Assembly: GCF_003991225.1 (NCBI RefSeq)
Contig: NZ_JTFC01000031.1
Coordinates: 62,001-126,000 of the forward strand
Origin: Candidatus Kurthia intestinigallinarum
GTDB taxonomy: Bacteria; Bacillota; Bacilli; Bacillales_A; Planococcaceae
Reading direction: 5' to 3'
Length of the DNA stretch: 64,000 nt
The notes beneath the pieces are model-generated. The model had not been told where the DNA came from and made no database searches. It was given only the letters and a program-made list of their open reading frames with translations. How positions within the stretch are numbered: the stretch's first letter is position 1; every line of letters begins with the position of its first letter. A program made the translations under genes and the position numbers. Shown here one piece after another: positions 29,162 through 35,591 of this stretch.

Positions 29162-29190
29162 ATAAAACTAGATTTAAAGGAGTGATACTA

Positions 29191-29547
29191 TTGTTAGGTG
29201 ATCGCTTAAAAAAATTAAGAAAAGAAAAAAAATTAACTCAACAAGACTTGGCTTCTAAAATTAACGTAACGCATGTTTCAATATCTGGATATGAAAGTGG
29301 CCGACGTTCACCAGATACCGACACATTGCAAAAGTTAGCCGACTACTTTGAAGTATCAACAGATTATCTTTTAGGTCGTTCAGATTCAGAACGAGCGAAT
29401 ATTTCAAAAAATGATGAAGAATTCGAAGCATTTGCTAACGATCCCTCTTTAGAGAAATGGTATAAAGAACTACCAGCTTCTAAAGAAGAAGATTTACGTA
29501 AGCTGCGTAAGATGTGGGAAATTTTGAAGGATAACGGAGAAATATAA
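29191..29547 (+). CDS. CI-like XRE repressor (no peptidase domain)
   Basis: A 118-residue protein; TTG 29,191 is chosen because AAAGGAG lies 8 bases upstream. Residues 1-65 are a classic HTH (LGDRLKKLRKEKKLTQQDLASKINVTHVSISGYESGRRSPDTDTLQKLADYFEVSTDYLLG). The short acidic C-terminus (EEFEAFANDPSLEKWYKELPASKEEDLRKLRKMWEIL) is the type cut by ImmA proteases in relatives of ICEBs1 ImmR and phi105 repressor. It lacks an autocleaving LexA/CI peptidase domain. It should hold the four operators during lysogeny. Confidence 0.87.
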   Translation: MLGDRLKKLRKEKKLTQQDLASKINVTHVSISGYESGRRSPDTDTLQKLADYFEVSTDYLLGRSDSERANISKNDEEFEAFANDPSLEKWYKELPASKEEDLRKLRKMWEILKDNGEI

Positions 29548-29643
29548 AGTTGCACTATCATGTGCTTCTTTTTTTGCCCAATATATAGGCACAAAGAATT
29601 ATTAAAAAAACAATATTTATATTATTTTAGGAGGATTTATTTA

Positions 29644-30384
29644 ATGGGAGCATTTATAGCAGTATTAGGCTTTTTAGCATTTTCAGTCGGCTTTCTTATG
29701 TTTGTATTTAGTATTTTCAAGAAAAAGAAAAAAGCTAAATCTCTTTTAATTATGGGCGTATCAATGGTCTTTTTTATAACAGGAGCAATCATTTCTGGAA
29801 GTAATGATGTAGCTACCCAAGACTCTAAACCCGTTGCTGATGAGAAGAAAGATGAGAAAGATCCGATTAAGGAAGATAAAGAAAAAGTAGCTGAGGACCA
29901 ACTGGCTAAAGAAGAACCAGTTGCTGAAAAAAGTGTGGCATCTGAGGAAGATACAGCTATTGAGAGTCAAACAAATACTAAGAAGACAGCCACTGACAAC
30001 CCTAAAAATGACTGGGAATCTAAAATTGACAAGATTGCTCAATCTGAAGATTCACCTACTGGGAAGTATGATCAAGTAATGATTCTCGCAAAAGACTATA
30101 CGCCTACCAAAAAAGAGGTTGAGAAATTCGCAGTATATATTATTACTGAATACCAAAGCAAACAATATTCAGCTGACATTACCAATGGTGAATATATGCT
30201 TAAGAACATATTTAGAGCCAATGTCATTAACAATTACATTGGTAAAGTTAATACACCACTAAACGACTTTGCATTTGATTTTTATCAAAATACTAAGTAC
30301 CTCTATCGCGGTGTGGATACAGTAGATAGCGCCGCAGTAAGATCTAATGAAAGACAAATGGATAAAGCATTATTAAAAATGTAA
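29644..30384 (+). CDS. Membrane-anchored protein of the lysogeny module
   Basis: A 246-residue protein with TTAGGAGGATTTATTTA before the ATG. Two N-terminal membrane helices (FIAVLGFLAFSVGFLMFVFSIF and LLIMGVSMVFFITGAIIS) are followed by a long charged, Glu/Lys-rich linker (residues about 60-130) and a C-terminal domain of about 110 residues (WESKIDKIAQSEDSPTGKYDQVMILAKDY, FAFDFYQNTKYLYRG). Genes at this place, between repressor and integrase, often encode superinfection exclusion or other lysogenic conversion proteins. That role is inference from location and topology. Confidence 0.7.
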   Translation: MGAFIAVLGFLAFSVGFLMFVFSIFKKKKKAKSLLIMGVSMVFFITGAIISGSNDVATQDSKPVADEKKDEKDPIKEDKEKVAEDQLAKEEPVAEKSVASEEDTAIESQTNTKKTATDNPKNDWESKIDKIAQSEDSPTGKYDQVMILAKDYTPTKKEVEKFAVYIITEYQSKQYSADITNGEYMLKNIFRANVINNYIGKVNTPLNDFAFDFYQNTKYLYRGVDTVDSAAVRSNERQMDKALLKM

Positions 30385-30452
30385 TTCTAAAATAAATATT
30401 AAAGGGGGTGTTATTTGAAAATCTATAAGCTTAAGAAGGAGGATAAATCTAG

Positions 30453-30998
30453 ATGCCTAAAAAAAGTATATTTATCTCAGGAATTCACGGTGTAGGAAAA
30501 ACCACATTTTCAAAACAGCTTGAAAATATTCTTCACTTACCTTTATACAGTGCTAGTACATTAATCAAACGACAAAATAGCGCCCTAGAGTTCCCTGAGA
30601 AAAAAATTCAGGATGTAGCTAAGAATCAGGATGTATTGTTACAAGCAATCGAGAATTTTGTCTCTGAAGAAAAATTTATTTTAGATGGCCATTTTACACT
30701 GCAAAAGGAAAATTGTGAAATAGTCAAAGTACCCCTTAGTACTTTTGAACAATTAAGTCCAGACTTAATGATTTTACTATTAGACGATCCAGTCAAAATT
30801 CAACAAAGAATCAATATACGAAATGACGTTTTTTTTGAACAAGAGTTTTTAAGAAACATGCAGGAAACCGAACTAAGATATTCTCAAGAGATATCGAATC
30901 ATTTAAATATTCCTTTAGTATGTTTAAATGGTTTCTCAGCATTTGAGCTATTTTTAAAATCAGCAATAAAAGGAGTTATAGAGGATGTCTACAATTAA
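30453..30998 (+). CDS. P-loop kinase-like ATPase of a three-gene cargo module
   Basis: A 181-residue protein with AAGGAGG before the ATG. Walker A is GIHGVGKTT (residues 10-18). The pattern continues with FILDGHFTL, then LMILLLDDPVKIQQRINIR (Walker B/lid-type) as in small adenylate kinase-like and AAA_18/AAA_33 nucleotide kinases. A nucleotide, nucleoside or RNA-end substrate is possible. Its 3' end overlaps the GNAT gene by 14 bases, and the ASCH gene overlaps that one, so the three genes form one translational unit. AT-rich compared with the structural genes. Confidence 0.75.
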   Translation: MPKKSIFISGIHGVGKTTFSKQLENILHLPLYSASTLIKRQNSALEFPEKKIQDVAKNQDVLLQAIENFVSEEKFILDGHFTLQKENCEIVKVPLSTFEQLSPDLMILLLDDPVKIQQRINIRNDVFFEQEFLRNMQETELRYSQEISNHLNIPLVCLNGFSAFELFLKSAIKGVIEDVYN

Positions 30999-32070
30999 AA
31001 ATACAACCAGAGGAGACTTTTTCAAAAAAGACTTCTTTAAAAACATAAATTTATCAGATCCATTTTTTAATACATTAAAAGCAGATTATGCTGAGTTTGA
31101 AGATTGGTATAATCGTAAAGGTGACAATGAAGCTTTCTATTATGAAGATGAAGATGGGATTCAAGCTTTTTTATACTTAAAATGTGAAGAAGAAGCACTA
31201 ATAGATATTTATCCTGAACTTCCTCAAAAAAAACGTATTAAAATTGGTACCCTAAAAATTAATGCACATGGCACCAAATTTGGTGATCGATTTATAAAGA
31301 AAGCTATCGATTACGCATTACTAAATAACACAAATCAATTATATGTCACAGTTTTTAGTAAACATCAAGGATTAATAACTCTTCTTAAAAAATATGGTTT
31401 TGCTAAACATGGCACTAAAACAACCACCAATGGTATCGAAGAAGTTTTAATAAAAGATATTAATCCCAATAGCTATTCCGAAAATAATTTACCTTCAGAA
31501 AACTACCCATTAATATCAAAAAAAGCCAACTCTTGGATATTAGCTATTTATCCAGAATGGCACTCACGTCTATTCCCTGACTCTATTTTATATACAGAAA
31601 GAACTGAAGATATAGTAGCCGATGTTTCCTATAGCAATAGTATTGAAAAAGTTTATATCTGCCGAATGTCCGATGTTCAAAAAATTAAAGAATACGATCA
31701 ATTAGTTATATATAGAACTAAAGAGAGTGGAAAAAATGCAGAATATTCTGCATTAGCATCTTCAATTTGTACAGTTGTAGAAGTAAAATCTAAAGAAGAT
31801 TTTAACAATGTCGATGAAGTAATTGATTACTGTCTGCCTTATAGTATTTTTACAGAAGAAGAAATCAGACAGCAATACCAATATAAAAATATGTTTGTAA
31901 TTAAAATGCTCTATTCATATTCTTTACCAAAAAGAGTAATTAGAAAGTATTTAATAGAAGAATGTGGAATTGACAGAAACTCATATTGGGGTATAATTAA
32001 TTTAACCGAACACCAATTCGGTAAAATATTAGAATTAGGTGACGCCCATGAAGGTATTATTGTCGATTAA
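30985..32070 (+). CDS. GNAT acetyltransferase-like protein with PUA-like C-terminal half
   Basis: A 361-residue protein. Residues about 40-155 read as a GNAT fold (DGIQAFLYLKCEEEALIDIYPEL, RIKIGTLKINAHGTKFGDRFIKKAIDYAL, LYVTVFSKHQGLITLLKKYGFAKHGTK), with the acetyl-CoA loop in the degenerate form GTKFGDRF. Residues about 175-361 are not a named domain. A stretch DQLVIYRTKESGKNAEYSALASSICTVVEV has the strand pattern of ASCH/PUA/EVE-type RNA-binding barrels. It overlaps both neighbours. A substrate such as a tRNA, RNA or nucleotide is only a hypothesis. Confidence 0.7.
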   Translation: MSTIKNTTRGDFFKKDFFKNINLSDPFFNTLKADYAEFEDWYNRKGDNEAFYYEDEDGIQAFLYLKCEEEALIDIYPELPQKKRIKIGTLKINAHGTKFGDRFIKKAIDYALLNNTNQLYVTVFSKHQGLITLLKKYGFAKHGTKTTTNGIEEVLIKDINPNSYSENNLPSENYPLISKKANSWILAIYPEWHSRLFPDSILYTERTEDIVADVSYSNSIEKVYICRMSDVQKIKEYDQLVIYRTKESGKNAEYSALASSICTVVEVKSKEDFNNVDEVIDYCLPYSIFTEEEIRQQYQYKNMFVIKMLYSYSLPKRVIRKYLIEECGIDRNSYWGIINLTEHQFGKILELGDAHEGIIVD

Positions 32071-32422
32071 ACCTGAGTTTGTCGAAAAAATATTCACCGG
32101 CGAAAAAAAGTATGAATACAGAAGAAGTATCTTCAAGCAACCAGACATCGAATCTATCATAATTTATTGCACGAAACCTGTCGGAAAAGTAGTTGGTGAG
32201 ATAACAATTGATTCTATTATCAATTTAAAAATCGACGACCTTTGGGAAAAGACAAAATTAAATTCTGGATTAAGTTATGATTTTTACAAAGAATATTTTC
32301 ACGATAAAGAAAAAGGATATGCTATCAAAATAGGGAAATTAATTCCATATGAAAAGCCCTTCTTACTTTCAGAACTAGGAGAAAATTTACATCCTCCTCA
32401 GTCTTTTCGTTATATAAAATAA
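32048..32422 (+). CDS. ASCH domain protein
   Basis: A 124-residue protein; ATG 32,048 is used because AGGTG precedes it and the gene overlaps the GNAT gene by 23 bases. The ASCH signature is clear: MKVLLSIKPEFVEKIFTGEKKYEYRR, VIIYCT-like IIIYCTKPVGKVVGEITID and the lysine/glutamate-lined start. ASCH domains have a PUA-like fold and are thought to bind RNA or nucleotides. Third gene of the kinase-GNAT-ASCH module, followed at once by a strong terminator. Confidence 0.85.
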   Translation: MKVLLSIKPEFVEKIFTGEKKYEYRRSIFKQPDIESIIIYCTKPVGKVVGEITIDSIINLKIDDLWEKTKLNSGLSYDFYKEYFHDKEKGYAIKIGKLIPYEKPFLLSELGENLHPPQSFRYIK

Positions 32423-32448
32423 CCCCACTTCCCAAAAGTGGGGTTTTC
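32421..32448 (+). terminator. Terminator of the lysogeny-module operon
   Basis: AACCCCACTT (32,421-32,430) pairs perfectly with AAGTGGGGTT (32,436-32,445), followed by TTCTT. It begins at the ASCH stop codon. The immA -35 hexamer lies within it. Confidence 0.9.
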
Positions 32449-32493: not shown

Positions 32494-33000
32494 TTGAATC
32501 ATTTAGAAGACTACATTAGTAATTTATATCAAACTATAGGTATACGCGTACCAGAGGAATTAGTGTGTGAAAATCTTTCTTCAAAACTTAATATCGGCCT
32601 TTATTACTGGGATGAGAAAAGCCAGGCAGCCACAATACATAACAAACCATTCATTTTTTTAAATCTACATATGCTACCAAATTTCAGATGGCAAATTTTC
32701 TGTCACGAGCTTTGTCACATTCTTTTTCATGCTGGTGATCAGATGCAGCTGCCTTCCAGTTTCGTTGAATATCAGGAACGGAAGGCCAATAACTTTGCGC
32801 TCCACGCAGCTGTACCTACATTCATGCTAAAAGAAATGGACTTACCTAATGATTATTTTGCCGCTGTAAGAGTGCTGCAAGATACATTTAGTATTAGCCT
32901 GACATTCGCTTGTAAGCGATTAGACCATTACATAAACAATCACATCATTCCCCTTCACAAAACCGCACTAGACGAGCCTAAATTGGCACATCACGACTGA
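32494..33000 (+). CDS. ImmA/IrrE family metallo-endopeptidase (stand-alone)
   Basis: A 168-residue protein starting at TTG 32,494 with AGGAGATGTAACAA upstream. The zinc site is H71-ELCH-75, followed by FHAG and the helix QERKANNFALHAAVP carrying the third ligand. Stand-alone ImmA proteases cleave small XRE repressors and trigger induction of ICEBs1-type elements and related phages. The nearby CI-like protein has no peptidase domain of its own and is the natural target. A LexA-like box lies at its promoter. Confidence 0.9.
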   Translation: MNHLEDYISNLYQTIGIRVPEELVCENLSSKLNIGLYYWDEKSQAATIHNKPFIFLNLHMLPNFRWQIFCHELCHILFHAGDQMQLPSSFVEYQERKANNFALHAAVPTFMLKEMDLPNDYFAAVRVLQDTFSISLTFACKRLDHYINNHIIPLHKTALDEPKLAHHD

Positions 33001-33045: not shown

Positions 33046-34239
33046 ATGGCATCATTTTCAAAATATAAAACGACTAAAGGTGAGTTTTGGATGATTCGTC
33101 TCTATTTAACGGATCCCGTCACTTTTGAAAAAAAGCTCACAACTAGACGTGGATTTCATAAACTAAGTGAGGCAAAATTAGCAGCGAAAGAATTAGAGGC
33201 AGAAGATTCAAAAGTGAAATTGAATTCAAAAGCGCACTATACGTACCGACAAATGTTTAAAGAGTATGAAGCAGAATATTCTACGCATCTAAAATCTTCT
33301 ACCGTTTATCGTAAATCTGTTGATTTCAACAAATGGATATTGCCGACTTTTGGCGATAAACGTTTAAAGGACATTACGAAAAAAGAGTGCCAAAATTATA
33401 TACACCATATGTCTACACAATTAAAATCGTATAAACCGATTGTCATTCAAGCGAGAAATGTATTCGATTTCGCCGTTCGAAACAATTACATTGAGGCTTC
33501 CCCTTTCGATAATACAGTCTATCCTAAAAATACTTTTTTCGAGGAAGAAGAAGCTTTAGAGAAATTTTGGACGAAAGAACAATCATTGTATTTTTTAGAG
33601 CAAGTCAAAGCGCATGAAAGCTTAAAGCGTTATGCGATGTTCCGTACATTGTTACTTACTGGCATGCGCAAAGGTGAGCTGCTGGCGCTTCAAGAAAAGG
33701 ATATTGATGATGCTACTCAAAATATCACGATCAATAAAACACTCTTTTATAACAAAGATGGCTCGTATCAATTGCTGAAACCTAAAACGAAAACATCGAT
33801 ACGGGAGCTACATTTAGACGATGAAACATATGCGGTATTGAAAGATCTAATCCGACAAAATAAAAAGCTGCGTCTCCAGTTTGGTGAACGAGCAGAGCAC
33901 TCGTTCATTTTCATTAAAGAAACATCGTTTGATCCGTTTCGTAATTCATACGTCAATGAAGTGTTAACGAAGCTTTGTAAAAAATATAAGCTGCCACGTA
34001 TCACTGTACATGGACTTCGTCACTCTTGCGCTTCCCTATTATTTGCTGCAGGTGTAGATGTTAAAGTAGTCCAAAAACTGCTCGGCCATGCGCATATTGA
34101 AACGACGATGAACATCTATACACACGTGACTACAGAACAAGTCGAAAAAACGACAGATTTGCTTATAAACTTCTTAAATGAACCGAAAAATATAAGCTCA
34201 TATAGTCAAAATATAGTCACGAGCGAAAAAAAGCCTTAA
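33046..34239 (+). CDS. int: Prophage integrase, tyrosine recombinase
   Basis: A 397-residue integrase with AAAAGGAGG before the ATG. It has an N-terminal arm-binding domain (residues 1-55, FSKYKTTKGEFWMIRLYLTDPVTFEKKLTTRRGF), a SAM-like core-binding domain (60-160), and a catalytic domain with R208 (GMRKGEL), K248, H322 and R325 (HGLRH), H348 (LLGHAH) and Y358 (NIYTH). It lies at the right end of the prophage, transcribed toward odhB, so attP/attR is expected just after its stop. Confidence 0.96.
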   Translation: MASFSKYKTTKGEFWMIRLYLTDPVTFEKKLTTRRGFHKLSEAKLAAKELEAEDSKVKLNSKAHYTYRQMFKEYEAEYSTHLKSSTVYRKSVDFNKWILPTFGDKRLKDITKKECQNYIHHMSTQLKSYKPIVIQARNVFDFAVRNNYIEASPFDNTVYPKNTFFEEEEALEKFWTKEQSLYFLEQVKAHESLKRYAMFRTLLLTGMRKGELLALQEKDIDDATQNITINKTLFYNKDGSYQLLKPKTKTSIRELHLDDETYAVLKDLIRQNKKLRLQFGERAEHSFIFIKETSFDPFRNSYVNEVLTKLCKKYKLPRITVHGLRHSCASLLFAAGVDVKVVQKLLGHAHIETTMNIYTHVTTEQVEKTTDLLINFLNEPKNISSYSQNIVTSEKKP

Positions 34240-34331
34240 AACAGCACAAAAAAAGCCCCCGATTTCTCGGAGGCTTTCTTTATATCTTCATTTTCAGAAG
34301 TGCTTCAAACGCTTGCTACACAAGGGTTTGA
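34240..34331. other. Right prophage-chromosome junction (attachment site region)
   Basis: The 92 bases between the integrase stop and the odhB stop must contain the right att core or its immediate neighbour. It includes the shared terminator (34,251-34,278) and then an unremarkable stretch reading CTTCAAACGCTTGCTACACA. The core cannot be named because the left junction is outside the window. Confidence 0.6.
34251..34278. terminator. Bidirectional terminator between int and odhB
   Basis: AAAGCC-CCCGA / TCGG-AGGCTTT stem with a TTTC loop, with A-run on the left and TTTCTTT on the right. It can end int on the plus strand and odhB on the minus strand. Confidence 0.85.
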
Positions 34332-35591
34332 TTAAGCTTCTAATAATAAATCTTCTGGGTTTTCGATTAATTCTTTAACCATTTTTAAGAAACCAACAGA
34401 TTCTTTACCGTTGATGATACGGTGGTCGTAAGAAAGAGCCACGTACATCATTGGACGAACTTCAACTTCACCGTTTACAGCGATTGGACGTTGTACGATG
34501 TTGTGCATACCAAGAATTGCAGCTTGGTCACCGTTGATGATTGGTGTAGACATTAATGAACCGAATACACCACCGTTAGTGATTGTGAATGAACCACCTT
34601 CAAGGTCAGATAAAGCTAATTTTTTGTTACGTGCTTTAACAGCTAAATCAGCAATGTCGCCTTCGATTTCAGCGAAGTTTTTACGATCTGTGTCGCGTAC
34701 GTTTGGTACTACTAAACCGTCTGGAGTTGATACAGCGATACCAACATCAAAGAATTTATTGTAGTGAATTTCTTCGCCAACGATTTTAGCATTTACAGCT
34801 GGGTATGCTTTAAGAGCAGCAGTTACAGCTTTTGTGAAGAATGACATGAAGCCTAGTTTAGTACCATCATGTTTTTCCATGAATGCATCTTTTTTGCGTT
34901 TACGAAGTGCCATAACGTTTGTCATGTCAATTTCGTTGAATGTTGTTAACATTGCAGTACCTTGAGATACTTCAAGTAAACGGTTAGCAGCTGTTTTTTG
35001 ACGACGAGTCATTTTAACAACTTCTACACGAGATTCATCTGCAGCTGGTGCAGCTTTTGGTGTTGGTGCTGCAGCTTGTGTTTGAGCTGGAGCTTGTTGT
35101 GCAGCTGGGTTATGAGCAGCTACGTCTTGTACGCGTACGCGGCCTTGAGGATCAACTGGGTTGATTGCGCCAAGATCGATACCTTTTTCACGAGCTAATT
35201 TACGAGCAGCTGGAGAAGCGATTACGCGACCGTTAGCAGTAGTTTCTTCTACTACTGGTGCAGCTTTTGGCGCTTCTTCTTTTGCTGGTGCTGGTGTTGC
35301 TTCTTTAACAGGAGCTTCCTCTTTTGCTGGTGCTGCAGCTGGTGCTGAAGCTGTACCGTTTGGATCTACTTTCGCGATTACAGCGCCTACTTCTACAACG
35401 TCGCCTTCTTGCGCAAGGATTTCAACTAATACGCCTGCTTCTTCTGAGATGATTTCAGCGTTTACTTTATCTGTTTCTAGTTCAACGATGAATTCACCTT
35501 TCTCAACTGTGTCACCTACGTTTTTAACCCAACGTACGATTTCACCTTCTGTGATAGATTCTGCTAATTCTGGTACGATAATGTCTGCCAC
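34332..35591 (-). CDS. odhB: 2-oxoglutarate dehydrogenase E2, dihydrolipoyl succinyltransferase
   Basis: A 419-residue protein starting at GTG 35,591 behind AGGAGG. It has an N-terminal lipoyl domain with K42 in ETDKV, an Ala/Pro/Glu-rich linker (residues 85-120), an E3/E1-binding domain ([35 protein letters not shown]) and a catalytic domain from about 195. The catalytic motif reads H390-R-I-I-N394-G where most relatives have HxxxDG; codon 34,410-34,412 is AAC. It transfers succinyl to CoA in the TCA cycle and is cotranscribed with odhA, 31 bases upstream. The prophage sits directly past its 3' end. Confidence 0.96.

Follow-up and report, generated by a model that had tools for sequence, protein, structure and literature searches.

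A GNAT-EVE/ASCH gene pair with an accessory kinase in a Kurthia prophage: a predicted toxin-antitoxin unit

Do three overlapping genes lodged between the repressor and the integrase of a prophage belong together, and if so, what might they do? We address these questions for a locus in a 64-kilobase (kb) stretch of the genome of Candidatus Kurthia intestinigallinarum, a member of the Bacillota (contig NZ_JTFC01000031.1, positions 62,001 to 126,000); this whole stretch is called the window, and its numbering is used for all positions below. The locus encodes a P-loop kinase, a GNAT-type acetyltransferase fused to a second domain, and an ASCH protein. The kinase and GNAT fusion genes overlap by 14 bases and the GNAT fusion and ASCH genes by 23:

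30453-30998, + strand: adenylate-kinase-like P-loop kinase gene, 181 amino acids
30985-32070, + strand: GNAT fusion gene, 361 amino acids
32048-32422, + strand: ASCH gene, 124 amino acids from its ATG; an alternative GTG at 32039 gives 127 amino acids

The unit is a prophage-borne member of an already known family, GNAT-EVE/ASCH (PDC-M11; GevT/GevA), in a variant with an optional kinase. Both the GNAT fusion and the ASCH gene match, over their full length, the two parts of a candidate defence pair in PADLOC-DB (PDC-M11A, E 6.2e-133, and PDC-M11B, 3.5e-48, respectively), while PHROGs assigns them to families 6345 and 3136, both of unknown function. The kinase sets the window apart from PDC-M11, matching other PADLOC families only, and weakly. 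A homologous pair adjoining cI in Escherichia phage PhiR47_2 (PV340567.1) is annotated as GevT toxin and GevA antitoxin; it shares with the window pair 42.5% and 51.2% identity, the 23-base overlap and the cI neighbour, but no kinase was found in its 11-kb region.

The family is also treated in a 2020 survey in BMC Biol. by Bell et al. The available passages of that survey (PMC7641849) describe a GNAT domain fused to EVE, accompanied nearly always by an ASCH gene and in many cases also by an AAA_17 ATPase, and predict toxin-antitoxin roles for (PIN-)GNAT-EVE with ASCH (and AAA_17). The same passages present PIN-less GNAT-EVE as common in prophages, with prophage cases in beta- and gamma-proteobacteria, describe the modules as uncharacterized by experiment as of that survey, and credit Iyer et al. 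with an earlier proposal of DNA-base acetylation. The window likewise holds all three gene types in one neighbourhood; it differs in lying in the Bacillota and in having a kinase that groups with adenylate kinases by sequence and predicted fold and, within our samples, is dedicated to this system. This survey was the one paper, among those listed, recognized by title or abstract as concerning GNAT-EVE/ASCH in a broader literature search, outside which fell subscription papers and most preprints; the terms sought were absent from PMC9122126, and the passages seen of PMC10853773 concern other matters. An earlier sequence-only reading of the window had proposed a candidate defence or RNA/nucleotide-modifying system, which agrees in kind with the toxin-antitoxin and defence predictions made by others, but the system turns out to be one already catalogued as PDC-M11, as GNAT-EVE/ASCH/AAA_17 and as GevT/GevA. 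What is added here is the identity of the kinase and its exclusive company in our samples, a clade with a split GNAT fusion, a near-constant 23-base overlap and a promoter-like site before ASCH.

The three overlapping genes form a real, recurrent unit. Our forward set comprised the window and 80 viral GNAT-EVE loci (the best 80 of 157 confirmed viral stretches), not thinned for relatedness; the neighbourhood table excludes loci with weak generic GNAT matches (L023-L036, L038-L067) and duplicate loci (L001, L011, L037). ASCH accompanies GNAT-EVE in 80 of these 81 loci, the lone exception (L080) being the window's own phage on a contig that ends right after the GNAT gene. In 77 loci ASCH lies downstream on the same strand, where the overlap with the GNAT gene is exactly 23 bases in 68 cases and 29 bases in eight (one start was not found), lengths that hold even where identity with the window GNAT protein falls to about 40%. 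A kinase is present in 33 loci: upstream on the same strand in nine (including the window and the copy in its own phage), downstream on the same strand in eight, and on the opposite strand downstream in 15 and upstream in one. The other 48 loci lack it, 34 of them with 1.5 kb or more of sequence in each direction, which makes the kinase look accessory rather than obligatory.

Approached from the kinase alone, the association is tighter. We collected 58 viral loci with one P-loop pattern from this system's kinases, which leaves other P-loops unsampled; this reverse set was likewise not thinned and overlaps the forward set. GNAT-EVE is present in 55 of the 58, ASCH in 55 and either one in 56, while in the two partnerless loci (L165, L215) the sequence stops 0 and about 0.5 kb past the kinase, and the 4 kb upstream likewise contain no partner. 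A profile search of 398 Bacillota genomes, free of the pattern's limit, gave strong GNAT-EVE matches (E < 1e-30) in 13 genomes and strong kinase matches (E < 1e-20) in four, each adjoining GNAT-EVE and one of them (G092) partial. The remaining GNAT-EVE matches were a further piece in one of the 13 (6.3e-19) and others with E values of at least 1.8e-5, mostly to the GNAT part only. Other listed kinase matches were at 1.5e-7 or weaker, and two of these (L246, L230) are adenylate-kinase-like genes placed as housekeeping adenylate kinase, next to what we take to be secY- and map-like genes. Within the window's own order, one of 261 genomes has a strong GNAT-EVE match, namely its own, where the window GNAT gene is the sole match in the 3.93-Mb assembly. 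The kinase is thus optional for the GNAT-EVE/ASCH system, yet in these samples no other home for it was found. The joint occurrence of the three genes on which the sequence-only reading had staked its proposal holds up from both directions (ASCH in 80 and kinase in 33 of 81 GNAT-EVE loci; a partner in 56 of 58 viral kinase loci and beside all four strong Bacillota kinases); neither rare co-occurrence nor loss of catalytic residues was found, conserved positions being invariant in the GNATs and K16 in the kinases.

What that reading had called a P-loop kinase-like gene can be refined to adenylate-kinase-like. The window kinase matches Pfam AAA_17 (9.1e-15) and is predicted to have a nucleoside-monophosphate (NMP) kinase fold; phosphoryl transfer to a nucleotide would be its putative activity. 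The P-loop lysine K16 is present in 22 of 22 kinases, followed by G in 11, S in seven and T in four, as are the LID-type arginines R123 (22/22) and R119 (20/22). A weak match to PADLOC VakA, which we take to be viperin-associated kinase, was seen in 17 of the 22 (best 1.3e-10). On a Paenibacillus larvae plasmid (L071:5391-7084) the kinase gene is seemingly interrupted by an annotated IS630-family transposase, and GNAT-EVE and ASCH look whole.

The GNAT fusion yields a two-domain model, with GNAT at residues ~10-160 and a PUA/ASCH/EVE-type domain at ~180-356, and the PUA-like half noticed earlier from the sequence is accordingly predicted to fold like a barrel of that type. Predicted-structure comparison likens the GNAT half to N-terminal acetyltransferases; among the 50 matches listed, which GNATs mostly fill, ZmASCH is the sole non-GNAT type. 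As to whether the second half is EVE or another PUA-like type, Pfam EVE matched one of 32 members, at 0.00053. Invariant in all 32 GNATs are K86, G88, G100, Y120, T122 and E152. In 15 loci on viral contigs (L096, L101, L105-L110, L136, L138, L141, L145, L147, L149 and L150) the GNAT half and the PUA-like half are encoded by two genes that share a frame and appear to be translationally coupled; in each of the 15 the kinase is convergent downstream, on the other strand. We rejected recoding of an in-frame stop for these loci: an ATG follows the GNAT stop by 0-3 bases, with a Shine-Dalgarno-like stretch before several of them, so that gene splitting is the simpler explanation. The family also extends to Methanothermobacter phage psiM100 (L008), whose 492-residue GNAT-EVE gene has an N-terminal extension and lies, beside ASCH, mostly within the annotated inserted fragment IFa; psiM2 (L222) has an ASCH gene without the GNAT-EVE gene seen in psiM100.

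The window ASCH protein matches Pfam ASCH at 2.5e-7, and a homologue of it carries the GevA antitoxin annotation. At E values up to 0.01, the only relatives of known structure that its sequence finds are four ZmASCH sequences (4e-19 with the family profile), and G18, K20, E23, R25, Y40 and S119 are invariant across 34 of 34 family members. PMC5615036 reports that ZmASCH of Zymomonas mobilis (PDB 5guq/5gus) is a nucleic-acid-binding protein with weak cleavage activity on single-stranded RNA, in which Tyr47, Lys53 and Ser128 take part. The counterparts of Tyr47 and Ser128 are the invariant Y40 and S119 (34/34), whereas Lys53 aligns with G46 in 34/34, a lysine standing at the adjoining position 47 in 24/34. 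A second comparison is with YqfB, an ASCH amidohydrolase for N4-acetylcytidine that, in the passages seen of PMC6972931, uses Lys21, Thr24 and Glu74 with Arg26. Besides the ASCH domain, the two share Lys and Arg counterparts, placed by motif spacing and not by a YqfB alignment, and the conserved E51 (33/34) is a possible counterpart of Glu74. The position of the Thr nucleophile, three after the catalytic Lys and again placed by motif spacing, is however Glu in 34/34, on which ground we rejected YqfB-type threonine hydrolysis by the ASCH protein; the protein could conceivably be a Glu-based hydrolase.

One further feature lies within the GNAT gene, at its 3' end and 50 bases upstream of the ASCH start:

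31970-31997, + strand: promoter-like TTGACA-16-TATAAT, sigma-70-type, 12/12 to consensus

It is the sole 12/12 site with a spacer of 16-18 in the 64-kb window on both strands, and L003, 62% identical, has a 12/12 site at the same place. In a hand-picked sample of 44 loci (the window, 35 viral representatives at <80% identity and eight named records), a site of at least 10/12 occurs within 110 bases before ASCH in eight, against two of 616 control windows inside GNAT genes; five of the eight, the window included, have it at the window's position and three closer to ASCH, while five of the 44 are without any candidate promoter site. Its position would let ASCH be transcribed over and above the toxin gene, and since a toxin-first toxin-antitoxin operon would need an extra antitoxin transcript, such an arrangement would fit it.

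The setting is that of a prophage cargo region. A consensus Shine-Dalgarno AAGGAGG, read from the sequence at 30436-30442, stands upstream of the kinase start, and the neighbouring features are:

29182-29547, + strand: cI-like helix-turn-helix (HTH) repressor gene (Pfam HTH_3 1.8e-19; PHROG 8, transcriptional regulator, 3e-30)
29638-30384, + strand: gene for a protein with a hydrophobic N-terminus (from its translation), between the repressor gene and the kinase
32421-32445, + strand: rho-independent terminator, terminator-like on the - strand too
32494-33000, + strand: ImmA/IrrE-type peptidase gene, past the terminator (Pfam Peptidase_M78 1.7e-15)
33046-34239, + strand: tyrosine integrase gene (Pfam Phage_integrase 7.7e-29)

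The anatomy drawn from the letters alone is confirmed throughout: the overlaps of 14 and 23 bases, the place between cI and int, the one strong terminator at the end of the module (folding energy -14.8 kcal/mol, z -4.0, matched by 0/200 shuffles) and the AT-richness, the GC content of kinase, GNAT fusion and ASCH being 0.308, 0.288 and 0.301 as compared with 0.374 over positions 1-26000. The protein at 29638-30384 has a lysine/glutamate-rich stretch and a weak match to PHROG 3793 (function unknown). The prophage ends could not be placed, as 34100-34500 shares no exact 14-40-base repeat with the rest of the window. At 926-1127, in the likely tail-fibre region, repeats can be read on the reverse strand as putative collagen-like Gly-X-Y.

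We propose that the locus encodes a toxin-antitoxin unit with a role in defence or prophage maintenance. The GNAT protein would acetylate an RNA or nucleotide target chosen by its PUA-like half; the ASCH protein, whose predicted fold is the same as that of this half, would restrain it by binding the toxin, the target or the product; and the adenylate-kinase-like accessory would adjust or trigger the GNAT/ASCH pair through nucleotides. The PDC-M11 matches, the published toxin-antitoxin prediction, the GevT/GevA naming, the co-occurrence, the promoter-like site and the conserved residues all point this way. With the GNAT-EVE protein as toxin, ASCH as antitoxin and the kinase as dedicated accessory, this is the best division of roles we can offer, at somewhat better than even confidence; in any given substrate we place less.

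Several observations weigh against this proposal. The GevT/GevA names are a submitter's annotation, and we found no publication on GevT/GevA or naming PDC-M11 among the papers listed by a search outside which subscription papers and most preprints fell. Only a minority of loci account for the promoter excess: the mean best score is 7.4, as against 6.9 for control windows and 7.1 for codon shuffles, and a conserved IDR...YWGII protein stretch may maintain part of the excess. In three of the 81 loci ASCH is convergent and hence not co-transcribed with the GNAT gene. Nor does the pair always stand beside a repressor: it is flanked in SopEPhi by a DinI-like gene and other unknown genes, and in Lj965 it precedes the terminase. 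Sequence kinship between the PUA-like half and ASCH was dropped at a profile-comparison probability of 9%, so that the predicted fold resemblance alone stands. Finally, of 30 phage records that carry this ASCH, 14 yielded no GNAT-EVE match, nor did GNAT-EVE turn up in the six regions inspected from those 14 (L218-L223). Because ASCH occurs in such records without GNAT-EVE, it has other uses; in these six regions it could be part of another system or a counter-toxin. They come from Streptococcus, Fusobacterium, Methanobacterium and Oenococcus phages, and in four of them the translations show another, short GNAT-like gene upstream of ASCH, annotated as such in one case. In the phages of Streptococcus and Oenococcus, ASCH comes after genes with methylase or ParB-like and ABC transporter annotations and after a short GNAT-like gene.

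Foremost among the alternatives, though unlikely, is acetylation of aminoacyl-tRNA in the manner of TacT-type GNAT toxins; the PUA-like half would then bind the tRNA. TacT-type pairs usually have a ribbon-helix-helix antitoxin, and the partner here is instead an ASCH protein. GNAT toxins that acetylate charged tRNA are nonetheless known, and the available passages of PMC7641849 suggest this target for GNAT-EVE; PUA folds bind RNA, and the modelled GNAT half resembles N-terminal acetyltransferases. In the Lactobacillus prophage Lj965 (L007:4280-4855), four annotated tRNA genes lie directly before the GNAT-EVE/ASCH pair, which would fit a tRNA-directed toxin.

We consider it quite unlikely that GNAT-EVE instead acetylates a base of the phage's own DNA to shield it from host restriction. 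This would be in line with the proposal of Iyer et al. and with the modified-base reading reported for PUA/EVE/ASCH domains (both through the passages seen of PMC7641849), as well as with the frequency of these genes in phages, but an adjacent ASCH with its own promoter-like site suits a toxin-antitoxin pair better, as does the GevT/GevA annotation. An antiviral nucleotide pathway appears rather improbable too: the GNAT-PUA protein would acetylate a free or RNA-derived nucleotide (for example at cytosine N4), the kinase would raise the product to a di- or triphosphate, which would poison the synthesis of phage RNA or DNA, and the ASCH enzyme would clean up. The kinase is indeed an NMP-kinase relative, found only with GNAT-EVE/ASCH in our samples save for the two contig-end loci, the kinases match VakA weakly, and the ASCH protein YqfB hydrolyses N4-acetylcytidine (PMC6972931); against this stand the 48 of 81 loci without a kinase, 34 of them with at least 1.5 kb on both sides, and the Glu that replaces the YqfB Thr nucleophile in 34/34. 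Very unlikely, in our estimate, is a form of this idea as nucleotide-analogue immunity, in which the PUA-guided acetyltransferase would make an acetylated nucleotide, the kinase would activate it to the di- or triphosphate and a Glu-bearing ASCH would erase it in uninfected cells. If such a pathway were true, the split clade, all 15 loci of which have the kinase on the opposite strand, would represent a modular version of it. We reject the idea that the genes are chance neighbours with unrelated roles, giving it a negligible probability: the stretch between repressor and integrase is a common cargo place, but by our counts GNAT-EVE keeps company with ASCH, and the kinase with the pair, in other contexts and gene orders as well.

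The predicted toxin-antitoxin unit belongs to a widespread family, found in E. coli, in the Bacillota, on viral contigs and in an archaeal phage: a near-identical GevTA pair is present in 274 of 5,426 complete E. coli genomes, and GNAT-EVE was confirmed in 157 viral stretches. For this family, the dedicated adenylate-kinase-like partner and the natural split between GNAT and PUA-like halves provide two clean handles on the question of its substrate.

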